DNA of 64,000 bases, taken from positions 4,813,501 to 4,877,500 of the forward strand of contig NC_134681.1 in NCBI RefSeq assembly GCF_024713945.1, written 5' to 3'. Source of the DNA: Dermatophagoides farinae. Its lineage: Eukaryota; Arthropoda; Arachnida; Sarcoptiformes; Pyroglyphidae. The notes under the pieces were generated by a model. The model ran no database searches and had not been told where the DNA came from. It worked only from the letters and a program-made list of their open reading frames with translations. The position numbers and the translations under genes are program-made. Each line of letters begins with the position of its first letter. Position 1 is the first letter of the stretch. This document shows, piece after piece, positions 1 to 56,318 of the stretch.

Positions 1-2451
1 AACACAAACCAATGATATAAATAACATTAATAATCCGAATGACATTAATGAAAGTACACCATATTCTTGATATTTCATTGGATAAATGAAAAAATATTTC
101 AAATGATTATGATAATCTTGCGATGCTACATATTGTTCTTGATACCATAATAATGGTATTATCTGTTCCGGTATTGTACGATTAGCATTCCTAAATTATT
201 TATAATGAAAATTTTTTAAAATTTATATAATTAATTATGGTGAAAAAAAAGAATAATGATAATTGATCATCATCATACAATTTCAAAGGCAATGGTGGAA
301 AATGTACATTCAATTGATATCGTTCCATTTTATCCAATACGATTCCGGAAATCTGAAAATTTGAAAATTTTTTAAAATTTGAAACATTGAAACCTTTTTA
401 CTAGCTTACTGGTTCAATATCAAGATAGGTTTGATAGATTTGATCATCAGGCAATAAACCTTTTATTGATTGGCCAATCGATTTTGTGATTGTACCGCTA
501 AAATGTGGTCGTGTTAATATAATCGGTGCACCATGATAACAATTGGCCATATCTAATATTCCATCATAATTACAACGTTTAAGTTGATTTTGATATCTAC
601 AAAAACAACCATTTGCTTTGTTACGAAATGGACTTTGCATAAAATCTCTAGCTTCACTAAATCTTCGTAGACTAATGCCAGAAGGTGATGAAATGAGATC
701 CAAATTCGTTAATGTTAATGGTATAGAGCTAGTTAATTAATTAAAACAACAGAATTATTAGAATCTTTTCATTTTTTTTTTGAAAATGTTAAATTAAAAC
801 ATTACCGACATAAACGTGGTATAAATTGATAGATACGAGATTCACGTACAAACGGATTAAATTGTCGACCATCCGTACCATTAATACGATTACATTGACG
901 ACCATACCAAGCATCTACATAACTATGTTGATTCCATGCAATGATTTCAGCATTCTTTTCATCATTGATACCAGTGTTGATATCATATTTTTCCACAGAA
1001 TCATTAGTGAAAAATGAAAAAACTGAATTTTGACGATATTGTGATTGGAGTTTCATTTTTTTCGATTTTTTTGTCTCATAATTTTCTTTCATTTTGATCA
1101 ATTTTATACCACGTTTAGCATCGTTTTCATAACGATATACACCTTTTAATAGATCATATGGATCAATATCAACACCAAGACGTTTTATATATGGTTCAGC
1201 TTTATCATAAAGGCTTAAAATTTTAACAACTGTTTCATCATCGGTAAATTTTGTATGTAAAACATTACTGGTATTGTTGTTGATTGATTTATTTGTCATA
1301 TTGGCTGTTGTTGTTGTTGTTGACAATAATTTTGCATTAATTGATGATGTCATATCAGATTCACGTTCATTCATAATGGTTTCAACATCCTGATCATCAT
1401 TATCATCATCATCCTGTTCATTATCATCATCATCTTCATCATCACCATATTGATCATAAAATTTAAAATTTGGACCAAAAATAATACGCCATATTGGACG
1501 TTCAACAAAAATATTCATTGCATATAAATTCAATATTTGATCAATGACATTTCTTAAACCAGTGGATATTTTTTTAACACTTTCTCCTTTTTTCATTATT
1601 GCTCTTACGAATGGATTTAATGCCTGAAAATGTTTTCAAATGAAAATTGATAAATCAATAAAAAACAAACAAACAATATGGATTTCAAATTCAATTTTTT
1701 TTCAAAATTACCGAAAGCTCGGAATTAACCACTGTGATTTTTTGATCAAGATTTTCAAATGAAAGTAATTGATCAAAATGATAACGGACACGTTCATTAT
1801 AGCCAACCTGATGTTTTTCATCATTGGCAAATATTACATTCTCTTTGAATCGTTCGATTCTATATGTATGTGTTGGTGAATTTGAATAATTAGTGACAAA
1901 CAAAAAACATATTCATTTAAATCATATTAAACATACCGAAAAACAAATGGCCCAATTTCACGTATCTGTGGCTGTAAACGATTTACAACTGTAGCAATAT
2001 CTTTTTCCTGTTTTTGTGATTTTGAATTACGATTTGTTCTACTTCTAGATGATGATTGTGATTGTGATTGTGATTGTGTTCGTGATGATGATGATGATGA
2101 TGATCGATTTATTTTTGATTTTTTCTTCTGATTATCCAATGTTTTTGGTGCAGATGCAGATGATAAGGTTTCTAGCCAATTTTGTCGTAATTCATCAGTG
2201 TTTTCAATTTTAAACACATGAACAGTTAATGTTTCACGACCAGTTGGTTTTAGCCAATGATCATACCACCAAAATTCATTATCATCATTAATGACCATCT
2301 GTCTTTTAACGACATCGCCAAATAATGAATCAAATTGACAATAAAGTAGAATACCGATACCCAAACATAAGATGCCTAAAAATGCAAATATTAAGAAACA
2401 AATACATCCTATTAATGGACATCGACGTTTTAGTTCAGCTGATGATGTCAT
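1..2451 (-). CDS. CD36/SCARB-family scavenger receptor, copy A (3' end outside window)
   Basis: Class B scavenger receptors are two-pass membrane glycoproteins that bind lipoproteins, lipids or pathogens through a large ectodomain. My spliced model is 2451-1937, 1859-1712, 1623-806, 728-410, 352-279 and 190-<1, all with GT...AG junctions and a continuous frame, giving at least 688 residues. The start is the ATG just before the N-terminal membrane helix (about residues 12-38). Family signatures follow: REIGPFVFRIERFKEN across the first junction, PRLCRSIPLTLTN across the third, a CKYQN...YGAP-like segment in exon 4 (YHGAPIILTRPHFSG), and a C-terminal hydrophobic helix beginning in exon 6 (EYGVLSLMSFGLLMLFISLV) and cut by the edge. 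Oddities are a Ser/Gln/Arg-rich insert near residues 115-160 and an Asp-rich insert near residues 281-300, both in the ectodomain. Ligand is unknown. The family is certain; the exact inserts and first intron depend on splice choices made by eye. Confidence 0.9.
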
Positions 2452-4940
2452 TTTAGAGAAAAATTTTTTTTGACAACATTAATATCACTTGGAAACATAA
2501 TGAATTTGATAATTATATTTAAATTTGAATGAAATAAACTAATAATGATGATGATGTTGATGAACGGATGAATAAATTTTAAAAATGACATCCATTTCAA
2601 TTAATTTTAATCAAAAAAAAAAAAAAATCATCATTATTGCACATTGCTATGGATGATTGATTGACAAACATCACATAATGATGATGAAATAATGAAACAA
2701 ACAAATAGCAACAATTAATGAACTCCAAATCGTTTCGGAATTTTCGTTTTTTTTTCTTCTTTATTTTGAATATCCACACAATCAATTGAACAAGTCTATA
2801 GAAAAATCAATTTTAATCTGATGACCTATTGGAATGACTTTTGATAATAGTTGATAGTTGATGATAATGATGATAAATACATAAAATAAAATATTTTGAT
2901 GAAATAGCGAATGTTTAATAATAATAATAATAATAAATAAATACTAAAACAATACAAAACAACAACAACAACAAAAACAATCATAAACTTTATAATAACA
3001 AGATCAATAAACTGATTAAAATTATAAATTGATATAAATCAATCAATTGATCAATGATATGATCAATAAAAAAAAATTGGAAGAAATTCTTTCGCTAATT
3101 TAAATTCATTTTTTTTTTGCTTTGTTTAGTTCAGTTAGTTTTTTTTTGGTGGGGGGAGTGGGCTCGATCATCATCAGCATCGATGAAATCGGTGGTCGAT
3201 TCTTATAGAATTCTAATTGAGTTTACAATTAATAACACCATATACACGTTCTCTTTCTACAAATGTTTGGATCTCTGGATGTGTATGGATGTATGAATGC
3301 TTCAAAAAACAATGGTAATAAACTTGTTTTTTGTTTTCTTCAAAATATCGTTTCGTTGCTTTTTCTTGATTTATGGAACACAATAATAATAATAATAATA
3401 TATATGGATCGATCGTAAAGGTGGTTGTGTTGGTGGTGGCTTTGGTGTTTGTGGTGGCGACGTTGTTTGTGTTGACGATGATAATGATGATGATGATGAT
3501 GATGGTGATTTTCAAAACATTTGGCTCATCATTTGACATTTTTCAGATTTTTTCGATTTTTTTTTATTTAGTTGTTCTCTGTAACATACTGGCTTCATTT
3601 TTATCACCATTTTGCTTTCTCCCTCTTTTCTTTCTCTCTCTCTCTTTAACTTGATCTCAATATTCTGGATGACTTTCGCCTAATTCATAGAATAAGAATA
3701 GGGTTGTTGATTTTAATGTAAAAAAAGGTAAAATTTTAAAAGAAAAAAAATTTTATAATCGAAACACACACACACACAGCTAAAAAAATGGTACATGTAC
3801 GATATTTTGTAGGTGAATTTAATTTGTCATTACTACCATTCTTGTATGTTTATTTCTTATGATGATATATTCTCTTATTCGATTTTAATTTCATTTCATT
3901 TTTCTTCGTATTCTGGTTTGTCAACTTGAAGTCGTTTATGTCATTGTTTGTGTGTGTGTGTATGTTGCGTAAAATGAAGCAAACAACAACAACAAAAACG
4001 ATCGACAAATACAAGGATGATGATGATGATGACGATAATAAACGATACATAAATCGATAAAAAATGTGCAATAATTCTTCAAGAACTTTCCAAAAACAAA
4101 ACAAAACACAAACAATATACAAACATACATGCACTATTCAGCACAAAAAAAAACATTTCAAATTATGTACCAGTTATGATTGGAATAAATATTTCGATTT
4201 GACGATTCTTACGATCCATCGATTCATACATGTATTTCTGTTGTGTGTGTTTGTGTGTGTGTGTATGTTCTGTGCAATATTTTTATTTTTTTCCCATTGA
4301 TTGGTAATAAACATAATTGATCACAAACAATATGATTATTATGAAAATTTGCAACATTTTAAATGAAAAAAAAATCCATTACTATCATCAGACGTTAAAT
4401 TAAAAGTTCAATTTTTTTTATATATATCAAAATTACATCGATATTACCATAAAATCGCGATTATAAGACGCAGATATTTTTTTTCTGTATAAGACGCGTT
4501 TTATAGTCACGATTTTACTTGTTGATAATGATCATTGTTGGGAAACAGTCATAAACATTCACATTATGAATTTCTGTATCCATAAACACATTTGAAAAAA
4601 AGGTTTCGTTTAACTGGAATGGGAATGAAAAATTTTTTTTTCTTTTCTTTTTTTTTGCCATAATTTCGATCCATGAATTGAACTTGACAATGAAAAAATG
4701 AAAAATTCTTTTAAATTTATTCTCCCTTTTTTTTATTCATGATACATTAACTCTCTCTCTCTCTCTCTCGCTCTTTTGCCATATTTTTTTCCATTTTTCG
4801 ATTTTTTCTTCACGGTCATTTGGATATTATATTGTAAATAACGATCATGTATATATGTTTGTAAGATATAACCATAGAATAATAGGAATAGGTGAAAATC
4901 GTTGTCAAGGAAAAGTGAAAATGAAACCATTGTGTCCATG

Positions 4941-4976
<36 letters not shown>

Positions 4977-5962
4977 AAAGGGCAAAAAAAATGGTGGCAA
5001 GAATCGATCGAATAATAATATATAGATCTTTATTGCCATCTAATCTAAATGTAAGAACAATAATAATAAGAACATTCTCAAATCGTCATGAATCATCATT
5101 GAATCGATTCGAAATAGAGATGAAGATGGAAAAAAAGAACATTATTATTGTGGACTGGAAGAAATTATGAAATTTTTTTTTTTTTTTTTTGAAATTTCAA
5201 ATATAATTTGTCAAATTCTTTTTTTTTTTTTTTTTTGCTTGTTTGTTTGCTTCCTCTTATGATCGTGTAAAGACTTGAATGAATAAATCTGAAAAACAAT
5301 CTAGTGGTTCAAGGACTCATTATTATGAGTTATTAAAATAATGATTTCCATTTTTTTTTTACTTTTGTTTTCATTTGGTTTTTTGTCTAAAAACCAATAA
5401 AACATTTATCAGACATAATTTTTTTTTCAATTTAAACTTGTGACCAAAAAAAAAAGACAGTAAAAATGATTTATATTCCTGTTTTTTTTTTTTTTTAATT
5501 GTTTTACCTTGAAACTTCACATCGATCCATAATTTTTTTTATGACGAAAATAATAATAATAATAATCTTTCCACAGTGATACAAAGGATACGGATATACT
5601 GTCGATTCAAATTCGTGTATCACTTTCACTGTATGAATTCCAGAAAATTCGTTTATGGTTTGTAAATTTCTATTCGTGTTTTACAATAGAATAGATTTGA
5701 AAATTCGTTTTTTAACCTTGAGAAAAACAGGTAAATTTGTCGATTTTTTTTCTCGTTTTAGCTGTCAGCTTTGATGTTTGATGTCCTATGATTAATGAGA
5801 ATTGAATGTTGAAAGAAATAGAAACAATTCTCTTATGGTTACCTTGGATACTAATACTTGAAATTATCATTATAACGTTCAATATTGAATAATCCTAAAA
5901 CAACAAAAACGAACAAAGAAAGTAAGAAAAAAATAGAATCAAAACACAATCGAACAAATCCA
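2452..5962. other. Intergenic region between divergent CD36-A and NDP kinase
   Basis: About 3.5 kb with no reading frame I can support. It holds poly(A)/poly(T) runs, (AAT)n near 2920, (TG)n at about 4942-4972, (TC)n near 4750, and a short inverted repeat at 4450-4517 described separately. Promoters of both divergent genes should lie here, but I recognise no core elements. Confidence 0.6.
4450..4517. repeat. Imperfect 22-bp inverted repeat, MITE-like hairpin
   Basis: The arm at 4450-4471 (TAAAATCGCGATTATAAGAC plus GC) is matched in inverse by 4496-4517 with three mismatches, around a T-rich 24-nt spacer. The TATAAGACGC motif appears in both orientations. Terminal inverted repeats this close together are typical of tiny non-autonomous DNA transposon remnants, but only one copy is seen here and no target duplication is clear. 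Confidence 0.4.
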
Positions 5963-6484
5963 ATGATTGGATTATTTTTTATATTCTATTCACTCTGCAT
6001 GATTGTCGTTCAAGCAACAATGTCCAATGCTAATCAAGAGCGAACTTTTTTAATGATCAAACCGGATGGTGTTCAACGTGGTTTAATTGGTGAAATTATT
6101 CAACGTTTTGAATCGAAAGGTTTTCAGTTGATTGCAATGAAAGTACTGATGGCTAATGATGAAATATTGCAACAACATTATCAAGATCTTGCTGATCGTC
6201 CATTTTTTCCAAGTCTTATTGAATATATGAAAATGGGTCCAATTGTTCCAATGGTATGGCAAGGATTGAATGTAGTGCGTACTGGACGACAAATGTTGGG
6301 TGAAACAAATCCAGCTGATTCAAAACCAGGCACAATTCGTGGCGATCTTTGTATTCAAACCGGGCGTAATATCATTCATGGTAGTGATTCAATTGAAACT
6401 GCTGAACGTGAAATTGATATTTGGTTCGAACCTGAAGAATTAATACAATACAGTTCTAGTCGCGATGTTTGGATTTATGAATGA
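5963..6484 (+). CDS. Nucleoside diphosphate kinase, NME3-like with hydrophobic N-terminus
   Basis: The enzyme transfers the terminal phosphate of ATP to other NDPs through a phosphohistidine. It is a single exon. The kinase core begins at [20 protein letters not shown]. It shows the Kpn-loop region (ADRPFFPSL), the GTIRGDLC segment, the active-site histidine in [16 protein letters not shown], and the usual family end in WIYE. Two starts are possible. ATG 5963 gives 173 residues and prefixes the core with [20 protein letters not shown], a hydrophobic segment much like that of vertebrate NME3, which anchors at mitochondrial or other membranes. ATG 6020 has a better Kozak context (A at -3) and gives a standard 154-residue cytosolic enzyme. 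I chose 5963 because of the NME3-like extension; both may be used. The frame stays open further upstream but has no earlier ATG. A poly(A) signal lies at 6655. Confidence 0.93.
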
Positions 6485-6654
6485 TGATCATTTCCAGAAT
6501 CGAACAAATGATCATGAAATGGTCGACTTGTAGAATCGAATTTTTCTTTTACCTAAAAAATTAGTATCGATATTATGTTCAATTTTATCCTGGAATAGTT
6601 ATCATTATTTCAATGTTATTAATTTTCTTATTTTATTTTGTAGTTAAAATTCGA

Positions 6655-6660
6655 AATAAA
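6655..6660 (+). promoter_or_regulatory. Poly(A) signal of the NDP kinase gene
   Basis: AATAAA about 170 nt after the kinase stop codon and about 340 nt before the next start. Position is sensible, but the hexamer is common by chance in DNA this AT-rich. Confidence 0.5.
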
Positions 6661-6704
6661 ATTAACACAAAATCAATAATCAAAACAAATTCAATTTGAA
6701 CGCT

Positions 6705-6719
6705 TGCGCCATCTATTGA
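6705..6719 (-). promoter_or_regulatory. CTCF-like motif upstream of the STMP1-like gene
   Basis: Read on the minus strand the 15-mer is TCAATAGATGGCGCA. It fits the CTCF core consensus CCASYAGRKGGCRSY at 12 of 15 positions, including the AGATGGCGC core. It sits between the NDP kinase poly(A) signal and the next gene, about 285 nt before its ATG. Binding is inference. Confidence 0.35.
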
Positions 6720-7003
6720 ATTAATATTAAAACATTATGCGAATGAATTTTTGAGCCATGTTGTCGTTGTTGTTATTGTTGTTGGAATCCACCTTGACGC
6801 AAACACATCAAACGCAATATTTTGACATTGAATTTTGACATTCGCGGACATCAAAGTCGATAAAGATTCTATTATAATCATCAGCATCAATTTTACACAA
6901 CGAATTACTGCCATTGTGAATTAATTCAATCACAAATTCTATCTCGATATTCAAATCAATCACCTTCGACAATCATCATTTACCTAATAAAAAAAAAACA
7001 ATA

Positions 7004-7174
7004 ATGCTTCGTGGCCTATTAATATTTGCTGCCGGCGTTTATACCGGTATATATGCATCACAAAATTATGATGTACCACAAGTGGATAAACCACAAGAAT
7101 TATTGAATCGTGTAAAAATCTGGCTAAACGATATTGATCGCCAATATCGTAAATCTGGTCGTGATGATAAATGA
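7004..7174 (+). CDS. STMP1-like short transmembrane mitochondrial protein, 56 aa
   Basis: This is a complete small gene: ATG at 7004, TGA at 7172-7174, uninterrupted. The product starts with a hydrophobic helix (MLRGLLIFAAGVYTGIYASQ), continues with NYDVP, and ends with a charged, probably helical tail (LNRVKIWLNDIDRQYRKSG). Vertebrate STMP1 (Mm47), a 47-residue inner-mitochondrial-membrane microprotein linked to respiratory-chain function, has the same plan: start, Gly-containing N-terminal helix, then the (A/S)QNYD(I/V)P motif and a Lys/Glu tail. The mite tail is about nine residues longer. The ATG is preceded by an A-rich leader (AAAACAATA). It lies 340 nt after the NDP kinase gene on the same strand and converges on CD36-B. 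Assignment rests on recalled family features, not on a search. Confidence 0.75.
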   Translation: MLRGLLIFAAGVYTGIYASQNYDVPQVDKPQELLNRVKIWLNDIDRQYRKSGRDDK

Positions 7175-7794
7175 AATTTTTTTTTGTCGTTCGTTGTCGT
7201 TCGTTGTTGTTTCAAATAGCATCAAAAAAAATCTTCATTATTGATTTTTAATTTTGATTTATTAAAATTTATTAATTATATATAGTAATAGTAGTAATAT
7301 ATAAAATCTGTATCAATGAAAAAAAAAATGATAATTTCCTGTGATCTGTATATGTAAATTGTAATCGAATTTTTCTTCTCACTTCATCATCATCATCAAT
7401 ACCTGTGTATTTTTTTGTTTTGTTTTGTGTGTGTATACACAAAATTGCTCAATTTACAATGGACAAAAAAAACGTAGGTAACAAACTTGATTGTTAATGA
7501 TGAAATTTTTATTTATTTATTAATTCAAATTTTTTTTCGTTTTATTTTTCTCTTCCTTGTCATCCCCAAAAATAAATGATACAGACATAATTTAAAAAAA
7601 AAATGAACGGCGAAAAAAAATAAACAAATTATTTCAATGATGAAACTAAAGTACAATTACAACGATATGAATTTCAAAATTTTTTTTCCAGAAATAAATG
7701 AAACAAATGTACCAAAAAGAAATAGAGAAAGAAAGAAAAGAAAAACATATCACAGTTTTAAATGATAAAATGAAAACAAATTAATGTCGAATAA
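7175..7794. other. 3' regions of the convergent STMP1-like and CD36-B genes
   Basis: AT-rich sequence without reading frames. It contains AATAAA on the plus strand near 7570 and on the minus strand at 7508-7517, so the 3' UTRs of the two converging genes could overlap. Confidence 0.5.
7508..7517 (-). promoter_or_regulatory. Poly(A) signals for CD36-B
   Basis: Two overlapping AATAAA hexamers on the minus strand about 280 nt beyond the CD36-B stop codon. Chance occurrence cannot be excluded in AT-rich sequence. Confidence 0.4.
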
Positions 7795-10047
7795 TCAACT
7801 TTTCACCGGATAATTTTCTGTCTCCGTTGTTGTTGATGATGATGATGATGATGATGTCGTTGTGTCTGTATCATGATCATAACCAGCATTTACCATACTG
7901 GCACTTGTTATCGATAATGTTGGTGGTGATTGTCGGCTATCAATATCGACCCATATTCCATTATTGTTCGTTTGTTGTTGGTTAGAAAATTTTTGCGATG
8001 GTGTAAACATAACGAAATTGGTTTCATCTTTATCCACATTGTTTGTTGTTTTATTTTTATGTTTATGAATCGTTAGCCAATATCCACTAATGGCAACTAA
8101 AATCAATCCAATCACAATAATCACAATAGAAAGTAAATCAGCATAGATGAATGGCTTGGTCAATGCCCAATTTATATGTTCAATCATTTCTGATGATGCT
8201 TCAGCTCGTAACTCCTGCCAGAATACCGGAAACACTACTTCGGGTATATAACGGAATCTTGAAATCCATGGAGGTTTTGTGATGTAAATATTGATCTGTA
8301 TACGAGCATATGAACGTATACTAGTACCAGTGTTTGGTTCGACCATCATATGGAATTGATGTCGTCGTCTATCCGGACGAAGTCCACCAATATTTTCACG
8401 ATAATTTGGATGAGCATAAAGAAAATGTGGATAACTAAACAGAACTGGTGCACCATATTTACATTCGGACATGTCAAATACACCGGAACGAAATATAATA
8501 CGGCCATTTTTTGTACGAAAAAATGGTTTTATGGCAAAACGTGACTGATTTCTTTCGCGTATCGATACGAGTATATCACCCAATTCTGGTCTGGATGGAG
8601 TAATTTTGCTTGTATAGCATATATTTGGTGGATGATCATCAATCGAATCAAGAGTATCCTGATCCGGAACATATCGATCAACAGTGATTTTGATATCATT
8701 CAAATCACCATTATAATCTTTTGGCATGAAATGTGTTGCATTTATTCCTGTTTCATCAGCATTAAACTTTATTGTTCGACAAAGTTCAGGGTGGAACAGC
8801 TTAAATGTTCGATCGTCATTAGTTGCTATAATTTGTCCATCAGTAGTTCCTTGTAAACGATTACATTCACTTTTAGGTTTCCAAAATTGCAATTCGGTTT
8901 TTCCATTATATCGATCGATATGATTAATTCGTGTGAAATCATTTTGGCCAGTGAATATTGTTAACGATCCATCATCTGTATTATTTCGGCCATATAGCCA
9001 ACCAAATCGACCTTTAGTATTTGGAATGTTTGGATTGAGTAATGGACCAAAACTAGTCAAAACTTCATGATAACCATCAAATAATAATTCACGAGCACTA
9101 CGACGTATGAAAAAACCTTCAGCCACTGTACTCAATCCAAGTGATACAATATTACGAACAACCAATGGTGCTTTTTGTAATAATGCTAATGTTACCGTTA
9201 ATGGACCATTGACAGTAACCAGAATACGTTCACGATCCGAAGCAATCGATAGCTCCCGGACAAATTCAAGAGATTTACGTTCACGAAATGTTACCGTTCC
9301 ATTTGAATGAAATTTGATAGGATCTTTTCTCCAACGTGATCTATAGGTAAATGGACCAATTTCACGAACCTGTGGCCTTGCACCATTACGTTCAATTTCA
9401 ATTGGATTTGTTACATTGAAAAAATAATAACGATAATAAACGGGCATAGGAATTTGTTTCCATTTTTCATATGTTTCACTGCCTTCGGCAATAACTAATT
9501 TCTATGATAAATAAATAAAAATATATATTTATTAAACGAAAAGAGATGAAAAAAAAAATTTATTATTAAAAAATATGAAAAATGATTCAGTAAGAAGAAA
9601 AAAAAATTAATAAACACCACCCATACACTCGTTGATTGGATCGTCGATCAAATCGGATTGATCTCATCGGATCAATGGTCTGATTCGGATTGTTTGTTTT
9701 TCTTTCTACTGATCAAATATACTTACCTCTGTAATTATTTTATGTATTAGTGAATGTAGAATAGCTAAATAGAATAAAAGGCCAATGATGATGAATAGAA
9801 TACCAAAACAAGCAAGTAAAAATATGTATAATGATTTTGTCAATATGATTGGCTGTGAATGTTTTGTGGAAACTTTTTTCTCAAATTCTGCCGTTATTGT
9901 TGATGATGACGATGATTGTGATGATGGTGATGATTGTGATGATTGTGATGGCTGTGGTGACGGCTGTTCCATATCGTTTTGATTTTGATTCTGTTGTTGT
10001 TGTTGTTGTTGTTGAAATGTCCAGATTTTATTTTTCCAATTGGACAT
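7795..10047 (-). CDS. CD36/SCARB-family scavenger receptor, copy B (complete, two exons)
   Basis: Lipid- or lipoprotein-binding class B scavenger receptor of the plasma membrane or endolysosome. The model is exon 1 at 10047-9727 and exon 2 at 9501-7795, with GAG|GTAAGT and ATAG|AAA junctions in phase 0, giving 675 residues. Residues 1-69 form a Gln/Ser-rich cytoplasmic tail; a membrane helix spans about 70-100. The ectodomain begins GSETYEKWKQIPMPVYYRYY then FFNVTNP, has REIGPFTYRSRW, CNRLQGTTDGQ, FHPELCRTI and MSECKYGAPVLFSYPHFLYA, all typical CD36 signatures. A second helix lies at about 558-584 (LLSIVIIVIGLILVAISGYW), followed by a 91-residue cytoplasmic tail ending in a Ser/Thr run, longer than usual for the family. 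It has one intron against at least five in copy A, so the pair is not a recent tandem duplication. Substrate unknown. Confidence 0.95.
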
Positions 10048-38649: not shown

Positions 38650-39345
38650 TCTACTATTCTATGTCGCTTAAATTTCCACTGTAAACTGCAATTTTTACAC
38701 TCTGCAAGTATAAAAAACTGTATTAACTTGGCATTTGTTGCGGGGAAGCCGAGCTGGACATTCCTAATTATTTTCAGTACAAACATAACTATTTAGTATG
38801 AGCTACTCAGTGTGTGTTGTGTGTGTGTGTCTGAGCATGCGGAAAAACTTTTGAATGCCGCTGAACAGTTCGTCCAGCTCAGAAGTAGAAGTCGCTTCCA
38901 AAGAAACGCATTCTGTGGTATGTAGCTTTGACAAAGCTTTTTTTCATTGTTCTAGCTTCAGCACACGTTGCTGCAGCTTTTGCATCCAATAGATGGTGCA
39001 GTCATTCAATAGAACATAGAAAGAGTTCGAATTCGAATTTTTCGAATTGATTATTGTGATAATACATGTGTCACACGTGATTTTCATTTTGTGTGCCTGT
39101 GTGAGTGTGTATTTGATGATGAAATCTTGCTTGAAGACAGACTGCATTTATTGGAATGATTTTTTCTGTTTTTGTTTCCATGATCTATGATCTACTCATC
39201 GTTTGGTAAGTTATTTCGGTTATTTAACCTGATTACACCTAAAATACCTGATAACTTTTTTCATTTAAAATAAAGAAAATGGACCATTTACGATATTGCA
39301 GAAAGCCACAGCGGTTGACGATTCAATGTTGAGTGTCTTCATGCG

Positions 39346-39789
39346 ATAAACCCACAAGGTTATCCTATCTGTTTGGATCTATAGACACAAACTTGGATTA
39401 AACATTGGATCGATTATCATGTTCATCCGCAATATTGAACCACAAAGTGGTTTGCTCAATGGCACGGGTTTATTTGTAAATAGACGCAGCATTGAAGCTC
39501 GAATATTGACAAGGAGGCTATGATTCATTTTGCAGCAAAACGATCAAGATCCTAAGCTACCATTTAAATTGGTGCGTGGACAATTTCCTGTCGTATTGGC
39601 TTATTGTTTTAAGGGCAATCTTTCGATAAAATAAGTGTGTACCTTCCTACACCAGTATTGCAACATGGAATAATTTATGCCGCTGCAAAAATCCTAATAA
39701 TCTGAAGATTTTTGTTCAGGAAATTGAAGAAAAGATCAACAACGAATACAGTATCTATAAATATCGTATTTCTTCAACTTATCGATTAG
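39346..39789 (+). pseudogene. Decayed Helitron helicase remnant, copy 1
   Basis: Read across frameshifts, the plus strand gives fragments of the C-terminal Pif1-like helicase of Helitrons: INPQGYP, HKLGLNIGSIIM, RNIEPQSGLLNGT, LPFKLVRGQFPVVLA, ISVYLPTPVLQHG and KNPNNLKIFVQEIEE. A TGA follows LTRRL and further frameshifts follow. Compared with copy 2 it has lost about 22 nt in the VVLAFALTIN motif region and 9 nt before CRCKNP. No functional product is possible. Confidence 0.8.
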
Positions 39790-39939
39790 CAATAATAAGT
39801 ATGCTGTTCGGTTTACGCAACTTTTTCAAAGGTATCAGGTGCAATACACATGGCTGACCCTGCGGTACCAAACCGAAGGCCGGAAGCAAAACGCCGTGCA
39901 TAGAAATCCACCGTCAGGCACGAAGCGTTAAAATTGACA

Positions 39940-40100
39940 CCTTTGGCTGGATGCCAAGCAGGGGGGGCGGCGCAGCCGTCCCCACCTGCGGGTATCCAGT
40001 TATATTGACCGTCAAGGATTGATACCTTTGGCTGGGTACCAAGCAGGGGGGGCGGCGCAGCCGCCACACCTGCGGGTATCCAGCTATATTGACTGTCAGG
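39940..40100 (+). repeat. GC-rich hairpin minisatellite in Helitron copy 1 (two units)
   Basis: Two tandem units of about 80-85 bp begin CCTTTGGCTGG and contain GGCGGCGCAGCCGCC-type palindromes and a GGGTATCCAG end. They are strikingly GC-rich in an AT-rich genome. Short open frames over them are artefacts. Confidence 0.85.
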
Positions 40101-40155
40101 AGTCAGCCCCGCAGGGCCAGCCTGGGGCAGGCGCGAAGCGCCTGTACCGGGCTGG

Positions 40156-41926
40156 TCAATAAATATTGTTCAAATACTGTTATTTTATATTGATCTGAAT
40201 CGATCAACAAACATTTTTTTTTCTTCAAAATTGAAAAACAGTAAAACAAAAAAGACAAACTACTAATCCGAATGGAATATCGTATATTTTGACACGATAA
40301 AAAACCGATAACCAGGAATTTTTCATTGATTTTTTTTTGGTGGTCATTGATGGTTATTTTTTTTGTATTCAAAACAAAACAAAAAAAAACTATTGATCTC
40401 GATATCGATATTGATATATCATTTCTTAGGAATTAGGGAAATGAGAAAATTTTTTTGTTGTCGTTGTTTTTTTTTTGCTTGATCATAACATTAAAAAAAA
40501 ATTCTCACTGTTTATATTACCAAATGTGTGTTATTCCGGGTTTAGATTCTTGATTCTTTTGAACAAGAATTTCATTTTGAACAAAATATTTTTTTTCTGT
40601 CAATTCGTTTTAAATTCAAATTCTATGACAAACAAAATATACAGACAGACACGCACACACACACACACACGAATCAAGATAAAATATGTGAAATGAAATG
40701 AATAAAGAAAAAACGAGATTTCTCATTTTTTTCCGTGTTTTTTTTTATTCGCTTTGCTTTTTATTTTTATACTAGAATTATATTGGAATTCTAGATTCAA
40801 ACGAAATTCAAATAAAAGAATTTTTTTTTCTTCTTCTTACTTTGATCTTTAATGGCTTAGCATTCTCTCTCTGTAATCCTATATCATTTACATATTCGTT
40901 CAATAATAATAAAAATATATATGCCAAATGAATCGAATAATTCGCCACTGACAACTGGAATCAATAGCTGAAATAACAACAACAACAACAACAACAATGA
41001 GAAAAAAAGGAAATAATTTTATTCAACGAAAAAAAATGTATGTCTTTTTCAACAAAAATCTTACAACAAAACAAATATTTTTTCTTCTTCAATTGACGAC
41101 CGGGTGCCGGCGAATAAAATAAAAAAAAAGAAGAAGAAAAGAAATACAAATGAACCCCTCGAAAACAAACAAATGAATGTGAAAAAAAAAGACTTGAATA
41201 TATATCGCCCTCCACCCCCCAATCTCCGTTTTTTTTTCAATTCTTGTCAATTTGATCAAATTTTTTTTTCTTTCTTTGTTCGATTTTGAAATTTATTTCA
41301 TGAAAATTTTTCTCTTTCTCTCGCTCTCTCTCTGTCGATTCAATTCAAGTTTGTGTACGATATATATTCGATAACGATCAAAAAGAATTTGACAATAAAG
41401 TGTGAAAACAGAATACTTACCCAGTCGTATGTATAAAAATATGGAAAAAAAGACAATCAAATTTTAAAAGTTGACGAGAGAGAGAGAGAGAGAGAGAGAA
41501 AAAAAAATTGTTGAATGGAAATTTTGCAAAAAAAAAATGAAGAAAAAATCCACAAACACTAAAACTGGCTAGAATCATCGAAATGAATTGAATTATAAAT
41601 TGAATTATTATTATGTTTTGAATTCATATTATTTTTTTGAAAGCTGAATTTTTTAAAAATTTCATTTTCAGAATGATTTTGTGATTTGCAATGACACAAT
41701 GACGTATGTTGACTATTTTTTTTTTTTTTTTTTGCTATTCAGCATCACTACTTCAAATGTGAATTAATAATAACAAAATGTAAATAGGTATGATATCTGA
41801 TCATGATTATTGTTGTGACTTTAATCGATTGTATCGATTGTTGATTTGAGTTGGTAAATATTTTTAAACATTGTTATGTTAGTGAGATTGTGAACAATAA
41901 CAATAGCATGATGATGATATGGCCAA
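40156..41926. other. Spacer between the two Helitron copies
   Basis: About 1.8 kb of ordinary AT-rich DNA with AC, AAC and (GA)n microsatellites (for example 41475-41500). No gene is seen. Confidence 0.6.
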
Positions 41927-42614
41927 TCTACTATTCTATGTCGCTTAAATTTCCACTGTAAACTGCAATTTTTACACTCTGCAAGTATAAAAAACTGTAT
42001 TAACTTGGCATTTGATGCGGGGAAGCCGAGCTGGACACTCCTAATTATTTTCAGTACAAACATAACTATTTAGTATGAGCTACTCAGTGTGTGTTGTGTG
42101 TGTGTGTCTGAGCATGCGGAAAAACTTTTGAATGCCGCTGAACAGTTCGTCCAGCTCAGAAGTAGAAGTCGCTTCCAAAGAAACGCATTCTGTGGTATGT
42201 AGCTTTGACAAAGCTTTTTTTCATTGTTCTAGCTCAGCACACGTTGCTGCAGCTTTTGCATCCAATAGATGGTGCAGTCATTCAATAGAACATAGAAAGA
42301 GTTCGAATTCGAATTTTCCGAATTGATTATTGTGATAATACATGTGTCACACGTGATTTTCATTTTGTGTGCCTGTGTGAGTGTGTATTTGATGTTGAAA
42401 TCTTGCTTGAAGACTGCATTTATTGGAATGATTTTTTCTATTTTTGTTTCCATGATCTATGATCTACTCATCGTTTGGTAAGTTATTTCGGTTATTTAAC
42501 CTGATTACACCTAAAATACCTGATAATTTTTTTCATTTAAAATAAAGAAAATGGAGCATTTACGATATTGCAGAAAGCCACAGCGGTTGACGATTCAATG
42601 TTGAGTGTCTTCAT

Positions 42615-43089
42615 GAGATAAACCCACAAGGTTATCCTATAGGATCTATAGACACAAACTTGGATTAAACATTGGATCGATTATCATGTTCAGTCGCAAT
42701 ATTGAACCACAAAGTGGTTTGCTCAATGGCACGCGTTTATTTGTAAATAGACGCAGCATTGAAGCTCGAATATTGACAAGGAGGCTATGATTCATTTTGC
42801 AGCAAAACGATCGAGATCTTAAGCTACCATTTAAATTGGTTCGTGGACGATTTCCTGTCGTATTGGCTTTTGCTCTGACAATTAATTAATGTTTTAAGGG
42901 CAATCTTTCGATAAAATAAGTGTGTACCTTCCTACACCAGTATTGCAACATGGAATGATTTATGTGGCTTTTTGCCGCTGCAAAAATCCTAATAATCTGA
43001 AGATTTTTGTTCAGGAAATTAAGGAAAAGATCAACAATGACCACAGTATCTATACCAAAAATATCGTATTTCTTCAACTTATCGATTAG
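42615..43089 (+). pseudogene. Decayed Helitron helicase remnant, copy 2
   Basis: The better preserved copy. In successive frames it reads EINPQGYP, HKLGLNIGSIIMFSRNIEPQ, SGLLNGTRLFVNRRSIEARI, LPFKLVRGRFPVVLAFALTI, then SFDKISVYLPTPVLQHG, MIYVAFCRCKNPNNLKIFVQ and a tail to TAG. These are the last helicase motifs of Helitron Rep/Hel proteins. It is broken by a TGA after LTRRL and a frameshift after ALTIN. Both lesions adjoin lesions in copy 1, so most decay predates the spread of these copies. Confidence 0.85.
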
Positions 43090-43244
43090 CAATAATAATT
43101 ATGCTGTTCGGTGTACGCAACTTTTTCAACGGTATCAGGTGCAATGCACAAGTGATGGCTGACCCTGCGGTACCAAACCGAAGGCCGGAAGCAACACGCC
43201 GTTCATAGAAACCCACCGTCAGGCACAAAGCGTTAAAATTGACA

Positions 43245-43573
43245 CCTTTGACTGGATGCCAAGTAGGGCGGCGAAGCCGTCCCCGCCTGCGGGTTTCCAG
43301 TTATATTGACCGTCAAGGATTCATACCTTTGGCTGGGTACCAAGCAGGGGGGGCGGCGCAGCCGCCACACCTGCGGGTATCCAGCTATATTGACCGTCAA
43401 GGATTAATACCTTTGACTGGATACCAAGCAGGGGGGCGGCGCAGCCGCCACCCCTGCGGGTATCCAGCTTTATTGACCGTCAAGGATTGATACCTTTGAC
43501 TGGATACCAAGCAGGGGGGGGGCGGCGCAGCCGCCACCCCTGCGGGTATCCAGCTTTATTGACCGTCAAGGAT
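43245..43573 (+). repeat. GC-rich hairpin minisatellite in Helitron copy 2 (four units)
   Basis: Four units at 81-84 bp spacing start with CCTTTG at 43245, 43326, 43410 and 43493. In the third unit, 43417-43467 folds into a stem with 24-nt arms, 22 of them paired, around a GCA loop (CTGGATACC ... GGGTATCCAG). Units differ mainly in the length of the central G run. Confidence 0.9.
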
Positions 43574-44393
43574 AGACAGCCCCGCAGGGCCAGCCTGGGC
43601 AGGCGCGAAGCGCCTGTACCGGGCTGGTAAAATATATCGAATCACTTTGAGGTGAAAAGGTAAAAACAAACAAACAAAAATTTACAAACAAAACTTAACC
43701 GATGAATTGTGCGCAATTTGTATTTGAATTTTTTTTTTGTTTTGTTTCAATCAACACAACACAAAAGTGGATACATATTAGAATCATTTGAATTTGTTTA
43801 TTATTAGACAATTCTGAATTGTAGATATTATGTTGTTGTTGAATGAAATTTGGTTTTGAATTTTTTTTCGATATTCAATGTGGGATGAATATAATTTTCA
43901 CATACATCAAACAAACACACACACACGCAAACAACACCATATAAACAAAAACTGTTTTCAATCATTCTCAGTCTTCATCATCATCATCATCATCGATGCA
44001 CCAAAGAATCGAAAAATATATTTGTTGGGTTGAAATTCTTTATTGCAAAAAAAAGCCTCATTTTTCATTCGTGAACATAGAATAGAATGTAGAAAAATTG
44101 AACATACACAGTGAAATAAACAAAACAAATTAATACATGTAACAAACAAACAAATAAACGAAAAATCATTGATCAAAATGAATTTTTTGTTTTTGTTTTT
44201 TTTTCTTTTGCATTTCTAGTTTTGATTCTGATGATGATGATCACAAAATTCGTTCATAAGACAAAGACATAAAAAGTTAATGAAAAAAATAGAAAAAAAA
44301 TAGGACAAACGTTGATGAAACTGAATAATTAATCAAATGACAATGGATAAATAATTAAGAATAAATGAAAAAAGAAAATGATATCGTGTAAAA

Positions 44394-54295: not shown

Positions 54296-56318
54296 TTATA
54301 CAGTTGTATTCAATTTTTTCAATCGTTCTAATTCAATCATGATGATTGTAATATTTTTCTTCTGTTCGGCCCAATCGTTAATCAAATCTTTCATGACTGT
54401 TTTCGATTTCCGTTCACTTTCCATTAAATCTTTGATAGTTGTTTGCTATATATTTATATTTATATGATTAACCATCATATAAAACAAAAGAGAGAAAGAT
54501 AAAAAGAAAAAAAAACCGATTAAGTAAATGTGAAATTAGAAAATGAAATTCTATTGTCATTATTCATTGCTCCATTGATATATATCGAGAAAAATAATTA
54601 TAATCACGATTCATGATGACAAGAAATGAATAATTTCAAATTATAAATATTACCATTTTATCCATTGATTGTTGTTGTTGTTTTATAAATGAATCGATAC
54701 GACCATCCATTGCAGATATTTTTGTACGAAGCTCTTGTATTTCTTGTCGCAATTGTTCATTTTGTTGTTGTTGTTGTTGTTCATTTTTTAATGAAAATGA
54801 TGATCCATTGTTAATAATCGTTGTTGATATGATTGAATTTGGACTTGAAGCTGTACCATTAGATAGCTTTTGATGATCATTTGTTGTTGTTGTTGTTGTT
54901 GTTGCCGTAGACGTTGTTGTTGTTGTTGATGTTATAATTGAATTGTTCAAGTTATTTTTAATATTATTAGCCGATGAACGTAATGATGGAAATAATAATG
55001 ATGATGTTGTAGGTGTGGTCGTAGTTGTATTTGTTGTTGTGGAATCATTAAGATTTGTATTAGTAGGATTCAATAAACTTGGTTTATTTTGTTTCGATAC
55101 AAATGGTTTTGTTGTTGTTATTGTTGTCGGTGTAGACGTTGATGCCGTCGTATTTATAGATGATGATGATAATGATGGAGTAGATGTACATGATGATGAA
55201 GATAAGGCCGTTTTATTTAATAAATTTTGCAATGGACTATTGTTTGTCATGGTTGTATTGGAAATGGGGGTGGCTGATGATGCTACTGTCGACGTTGTTG
55301 CTGTTGTTGTTGTTGTTGTTGTTGTTGTTATTGTTGCTGTTGTTGAAGATGATGAATCTGTATTATCGAATTTATTTATATTACGTTGACGTTTAGCTTC
55401 TTGTGCTTCACGTAATTCTAACATCCATGGTAATAATTTTTGTGATGAAGATCCGCCACCGATTTCTCTATTGCTAGCGCCAGTACTGCCACCTTCCGAT
55501 GGTGATATTGGTTGTCGAATATCGATATCACCATTTAATGAGGATTCTGTAGAGGAAACGTTTGCAGCTGCTGCTGCTGCGATTGAAGGCGATTGTGGTT
55601 GCGTATCATTTGTCATTGATGATGATGATGATGAATGAGCACCAGTATTTTCTTCATCAATCATATTTGGATCGAAATCTTTACCAAAATAAAGTGAAGG
55701 TGGCCGTCGAGAATTTGATGGTATTTTTGGCCTTTGTTTTGTTGGATGGAATAATTTCGATGCATTATTATTATTATTATTATTATTATTCGAATCGATA
55801 CCATTTTCATTATTATTATCCACAATATCATCATCCATATTCGATGATATATTATTTGCTGATGATGAAGATTGTTGTTGAAACATTTTTGTTTTTATAT
55901 TATTTTTATTATTAGCTATAATGACGTTTGCTGATGAATCTTTATTATCTATTGTTGAATCTTTATCTTTATTATTATTATTATTAATCGGTGTATGATG
56001 ATTGCGATCAGGTTTTTTGACTCGATTCAATGAAAATTTCGATAATGATGATGATGATGTTGTTGTTGTTGTTGTTGATTCTTCAACATTTATTGGTTGC
56101 GGTGGTGGTTTAATAATTTCAACAAAATTATCCGGAAATAATGCTATACGTCCATTTAATTCACCTTTCCACCAGCCAGCATCTTCATTCTCTTTAGAAA
56201 TGATTGTAATAATATCACCTTCTTTTATAGTAAGCTCATCATCATTTTGTGCATCATAACGGAACAATACTTTTGCCTGTTCACGTTGTGGTTTTGGCGG
56301 TAATTTTGGTGCCATCAT
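54296..56318 (-). CDS. CIN85/CD2AP-like adaptor with a single SH3 domain
   Basis: CIN85/CD2AP proteins (cindr in flies) link receptor endocytosis, Cbl and cortical actin. The two-exon model is 56318-54654 and 54445-54296, phase 0, 604 residues. The SH3 domain spans about residues 16-72: [38 protein letters not shown] and [11 protein letters not shown], closest in my recollection to the third SH3 of CD2AP/CIN85. A proline stretch, a 430-residue disordered region with Ser/Thr/Asn runs and a conserved island ([20 protein letters not shown]) follow. The C-terminus is a coiled coil from about 515 ([20 protein letters not shown]) continuing into exon 2 ([20 protein letters not shown]), as in the family. 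A TGA lies 9 nt before the first ATG of the [11 protein letters not shown] start, so earlier SH3 domains are not joined here. Confidence 0.88.

Follow-up and report, generated by a model that had tools for sequence, protein, structure and literature searches.

The analysed window, 64,000 nucleotides at C5:4813501-4877500 of the Dermatophagoides farinae genome (62.4 Mb in 22 contigs), carries three CD36 family frames on the minus strand and, among them, a plus-strand frame for nucleoside diphosphate kinase (positions 802-9447, Pfam). An SH3-domain protein frame with long low-complexity stretches lies at 54636-56318 (Pfam). Between these genes are two related insertions, hereafter A and B, with the following features.

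38650..40155, plus strand: Helitron copy A, non-autonomous, 1506 bp, preceded by A and followed by T
38650..38677, plus strand: left terminus of A, beginning TCTACTATTC, used as a 28-mer in the genome search
39280..39786, plus strand: C-terminal part of the RepHel helicase in A, left as a broken remnant (tblastn matches in several frames, with stops)
39954..40117, plus strand: array in A of two units (about 83 bp), both foldable into a long hairpin
40117..40155, plus strand: right-terminal palindrome of A, 39 nt, with an inner 7-bp hairpin at 40128-40144 and a final CTGG
41927..43627, plus strand: Helitron copy B, non-autonomous, 1701 bp, preceded by A and followed by T
41927..41954, plus strand: left terminus of B, beginning TCTACTATTC, used as a 28-mer in the genome search
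42552..43086, plus strand: C-terminal part of the RepHel helicase in B, left as a broken remnant (tblastn matches in three frames)
43244..43573, plus strand: array in B of four units (about 83 bp), all with a long hairpin
43590..43627, plus strand: right-terminal palindrome of B, 38 nt, with an inner 7-bp hairpin at 43600-43616 and a final CTGG

A and B are two independent insertions of one Helitron family in the same orientation, with the structure A^TC...CTGG^T. Both lie on the same strand, separated by a spacer of 1771 bp (40156-41926); TCTACTATTC opens each of them (at 38650 and 41927), and CCGGGCTGG closes each (at 40155 and 43627). They are 95.71% identical over 1492 gapless columns, with several indels besides, and have two (A) versus four (B) of the 83-bp units. 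A first reading made from the letters alone (hereafter the sequence-only reading) had described two insertions with exact common boundaries, TCTACTATTC starts, CTGG ends and A/T junctions within 38650-43627, and our analysis agrees. It had also called the flanks unrelated, and this is confirmed: comparison of the 400-bp flanks of A with those of B gave nothing beyond short matches (18-56 bases), and the joined-flank queries of A and of B each match just their own two sides genome-wide. No target duplication is visible at either copy, and no terminal inverted repeat was found when the first 60 bases were compared with the reverse complement of the last 60 bases (412 of 500 shuffles for A and 457 of 500 for B score equally high). 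The description of the pair as tandem holds for their orientation and means nothing beyond that. The term structurally complete is apt for the ends, whereas the interiors carry remnants, corresponding to RepHel residues 1279-1470 (tblastn), of a helicase that is broken in both copies; A and B are non-autonomous, internally deleted derivatives.

A whole-genome search with the 28-base right end, allowing up to 3 mismatches, returned 48 matches, 40 of them exact, and the same pattern read backwards as a control returned none. The final four bases of these right ends are CTGG in 46, CTAG in one and CTGC in one. All 48 were read with their flank, giving 47 distinct right flanks (those at C1:2283050 and C9:2686372 are identical), and T comes first in 46 of the 47 (binomial P 1e-19 against the window base composition); the exception, L034, begins with A. 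For the left end shared by A and B (28 bases), the genome gave 12 exact matches and one more with 3 mismatches. With two looser motifs applied within the sequence retrieved from the genome, 28 distinct left ends were counted, of which 27 begin with TC and 26 are preceded by A (P 4e-10 against the window base composition), the exceptions being L037, which follows T, and L061, which follows the G of another copy's CTGG. Searching the genome with the ends, as the sequence-only reading had proposed, indeed yields dozens of copies with conserved termini and unrelated A/T flanks. Its view that A and B alone fix the family to the base has to be given up, with the left end varying across the family as TCTACTATTC, TCTACTATAC, TCTACTATAT, TCTACTCTTTAAGAGG and TCTCTTTAAGAGG. 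L048 has a trimmed left end, though it is among the 26 preceded by A, and the first bases are absent from L060 and from the second element of L030 as well. All three trimmed ends resume in or near a TATTCTATG stretch. The G+C content is 9% in the first ten bases past the element versus 30% at +50 to +100. C is the second base in 12 of the 47 right flanks, which hints, too weakly for a claim, that the targets resemble the element's own TC end.

Similarity continuing past CTGG, which the sequence-only reading had named as grounds for refutation, occurs in one other pair, C1:2283050 and C9:2686372, and the flanks of A and B do not match. The two copies of that pair are identical over 318 bp, including 108 bp past CTGG, and are best read as an older copy that was duplicated along with its flank. 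At another locus, L084:138 (C6), a family left end lies about 1.4 kb before an ML-domain frame (C6:23244-23564), a gene of the group-2-like allergen family. By its resemblance, this gene is perhaps Der f 22. Der f 22 is gene 4 of chromosome 6 in Table 4 of PMC11074847. A different allergen-type gene of the genome, recovered through the Pfam family of group 2 mite allergens, matches solved Der f 2 (1ahk) at 120 of 122 aligned positions, with a better score than against Der p 2.

The joined flanks of 17 elements were compared with sequence retrieved from the genome only. No empty site for A or B was found in the genome with their joined flanks (about 90 bases per side), and empty A-T sites, which the sequence-only reading had suggested seeking in related species or strains, were obtained within this genome at two other copies. 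The copy L058 was inserted into a 105-bp satellite. When its two flanks are put together (100|100), an adjacent stretch proves identical to them at 200 of 200 bases, and the central 100 bases of the joined flanks occur twice. L057 lies in a duplicated tract, with its right flank continuing into a tRNA gene (Rfam), and of the 189 columns in the alignment of its joined flanks with a second copy close by, 164 match and 18 are gap positions. This second copy is identical and gap-free over at least 20 bases across A^T, through CAAGAA/TTTTGAAT. The empty sites of L058 and L057 show plain insertion between A and T. The satellite of L058 (L058:2384-2859) reads TCTATTATATTATG, close to the Helitron left end, at the insertion point. 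An ARAGORN search of five sources gave no tRNA (the one beside the L057 copy was found by Rfam). Four further empty-site candidates were rejected: the matches of L053 and L061 continue from one flank into an element or a neighbouring copy, and L052 and L063 gave short matches (E 0.004).

Some junctions are less simple. In L061, the CTGG of one element directly abuts the TC of another; a left junction ordinarily offers an A^T of its own, and a second element entering there would explain this arrangement. Excerpts of PMC5876387 report tandem arrays and precise head-to-tail junctions in Helitrons of plants and bats. In L030 (C5:2340505-2343532) and L031, one Helitron directly follows another of a different subfamily. 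Both elements of L030 are followed by TAATAATTAT, and the second starts without its first bases.

The genome contains 5 Pfam Helitron_like_N matches; two cover the full profile and belong to long relatives of A and B. L045 is a 5713-bp element with the structure A^TC...CTGG^T and an uninterrupted frame of 1474 aa. Its right end has one extra base between the hairpin and CTGG compared with the 28-mer and for this reason lies outside the 48 right ends. The L045 protein matches Helitron_like_N (3e-55) and PIF1 (5.2e-48) in Pfam, and aligns over residues 39-1469 with the solved Helraiser transposase 7lcc_A (E 0, 1019.9 bits). The motifs PHAH, YLFKY and Walker A are present, the first two aligned with their Helraiser counterparts, and no endonuclease family is among the 8 Pfam matches of this RepHel at E 0.001. 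By these matches, L045 combines a HUH/Y2 Rep and a Pif1-type helicase in one protein, and it is a candidate autonomous member of the family. The other long relative, L044 (C7:4583100-4593099), is 7802 bp long and 98.8% identical to L045 over a 4773-column block; its coding region is divided between frames, and it has three left termini in series, at minus-strand positions 1914, 2209 and 2512, about 300 bp apart. Of the first 18 bases, 16 are the same in the left termini of A and L045. Further in, A can be aligned with L045 over 70-488 and again from 636 to the right end, and about 4.2 kb of L045 between these left-part and right-end blocks is missing from A. Since the helicase remnant of A is only 76-79% identical to the long relatives with gaps counted (about 89-91% without), A and B derive from a sister lineage and not directly from those long copies.

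The right end contains more structure than the 7-bp hairpin 11 nt from CTGG noted in the sequence-only reading. That hairpin, with a loop of GAA, is the tip of the 38-39-nt palindrome, in which 9 upstream bases form an outer arm able to pair with the element's nine terminal bases, CCGGGCTGG. When 50 nt of B were folded (z -2.9; 2 of 200 shuffles equally stable), eight outer pairs out of nine were formed, with the last G left free because its would-be partner joins an upstream helix. Among the 423 outer-arm positions of the 47 distinct ends, 418 are able to pair, G-T counted; since ten offsets were tried to find the best arm and the ends are mostly identical, this value reflects conservation more than covariation. 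Inward of the palindrome, one to four 83-bp units were found in 31 of the 32 right ends with 700 bp available, L045 included, and the units occur in both long relatives; L051 has no such unit at its right end. The last unit stops 65-74 nt before the terminus. Three of the four units of B were folded and gave z values of -5.2, -7.9 and -5.2. In a covariation set of 54 distinct near-full-length units, from which partial matches had been dropped, pairing is found in 95.9% of cells, versus 31.7-49.0% when the structure is slid and a mean of 95.5% when shuffled. Three pairs change on both sides, in 4 cells, and the covariation values are reached by 1 to 5 of 500 shuffles; in 36 of 52 units, columns 39 and 60 do not pair. 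The pair counts across the 54 units give weak support to the predicted fold, since these units are relatives of one another and one of them supplied the structure.

This mite lineage is reported to have lost the piRNA defence. We offer as a doubtful proposal, one that is more probably wrong than right, that the right end is a multi-hairpin stop signal in which the palindrome, with an outer arm able to pair with the terminal CTGG, and the 83-bp array would together make termination unusually strict, so that the 3' end stays near-invariant (40 of 48 exact) and the left ends and interiors diversify in a lineage devoid of that defence. Involvement of the array in stopping is our conjecture. The palindrome of Helraiser, 11 nt from the end, is described in excerpts of PMC4778049 as a terminator whose deletion raises truncation and read-through, and by analogy the right-end palindrome of the mite family may act as a stop signal.

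Copies elsewhere in the genome bear on when and how A and B arrived. A is identical at 1506 of 1506 bases to C5:1088800-1090305, 3.8 Mb away, and two further copies differ from it by 4 and 5 bases. Between B and the copy that starts at C2:4648872, the 1683 compared columns contain no substitution, and the differences are one 18-bp and one 1-bp indel. The two window copies might be a single repeat duplicated locally, by tandem duplication or unequal exchange, and not the products of two transpositions, as could be thought from their shared orientation, their spacing of 1771 bp and their identity of 95.71% over 1492 gapless columns. However, the similarity ends at the termini and the flanks are unrelated, and since A is nearer to C5:1088800-1090305 and B to C2:4648872 than the two are to each other, we give local duplication practically no chance and regard it as excluded. 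The close matches point to recent transposition of two subfamilies, and together with the unbroken transposase frame of L045 they show a D. farinae Helitron family that has moved recently.

We consider, with a probability of about 0.96, that A and B belong to a recently active D. farinae Helitron family as non-autonomous members, moved in trans by the Helraiser-like RepHel of the longer relatives. On sequence grounds, the family has every defining feature of a canonical Helitron that can be assessed at this level, namely a 5' TC, a 3' CTRR, a hairpin 11 nt from the 3' end, an A^T target without duplication, ends free of terminal inverted repeats (in A and B) and a member, L045, with a HUH/Y2 Rep and a Pif1-type helicase in one protein. 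Helentrons, the other rolling-circle branch, are defined by an endonuclease domain added to RepHel. An assignment of A and B to Helentrons or HINEs could appeal to their short tandem-repeat array and 3' palindrome, which HINEs also have according to excerpts of PMC7492417, where subterminal inverted repeats and a left-end microsatellite are further HINE features. The A^T target at two empty sites and in most flanks, together with the RepHel of L045, which lacks a Pfam endonuclease at E 0.001 and can be aligned with Helraiser over almost all of its length, makes this assignment very improbable. A canonical family that is now extinct, with copies young only through a recent burst and the active transposase gone, deserves more weight, given that the genome has just the two full-length Helitron_like_N matches and that one of these has its coding region split between frames; the uninterrupted 1474-aa frame with intact motifs and the twins of the window copies at 0 mismatches (A) or 0 substitutions (B) argue against extinction, which we regard as unlikely, though a serious prospect. 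For the canonical family moved in trans, homology with Helraiser suggests the following course: the HUH/two-tyrosine nuclease would nick at A^TC, the helicase would displace one strand, the right-end palindrome would signal the stop after CTGG, and a circle would form and enter an A^T site without duplication.

The family is a new one within a well-known class. Open-literature listings on Helitrons in Dermatophagoides, house dust mite, Acari and Sarcoptes showed no earlier description of it, and the word helitron is absent from the main text of PMC11074847 and PMC5805368; Helitrons are reported in other mites, according to excerpts of the literature. Since Table 2 of PMC11074847, the repeat table of the D. 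farinae assembly GCA_024713945.1, has no rolling-circle row, the published annotation of that assembly appears to have missed the family. Within a single 62-Mb genome, the mite Helitrons offer a recently active animal family, exact to the base, that brings together non-autonomous copies, empty sites and a longer relative whose RepHel frame is uninterrupted. Their unusual right end would allow the role of hairpins in stopping Helitron transposition to be tested.

Compared with Helraiser/Helibat1 of bats, as described in excerpts of PMC4778049, the mite family is alike in its 5' TC, its CTRR 3' end, its A^T target and the palindrome 11 nt from the right end, and differs in ending with CTGG where Helraiser ends with CTAG. 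Both have a single RepHel protein, of 1474 aa in the mite versus 1496 aa in Helraiser, aligned over nearly the full length. Two further traits are stated for the mite side only: the 11 nt past the hairpin can pair with the outer arm, and one to four extra hairpin units lie inside 31 of 32 right ends. The Helentron-derived HINEs of oysters, as far as excerpts of PMC7492417 describe them, are likewise non-autonomous rolling-circle elements with tandem repeats and a 3' palindrome; the mite family is set apart from them by its A^T target, by a RepHel free of Pfam endonuclease families and by a repeat array that directly adjoins the right end.
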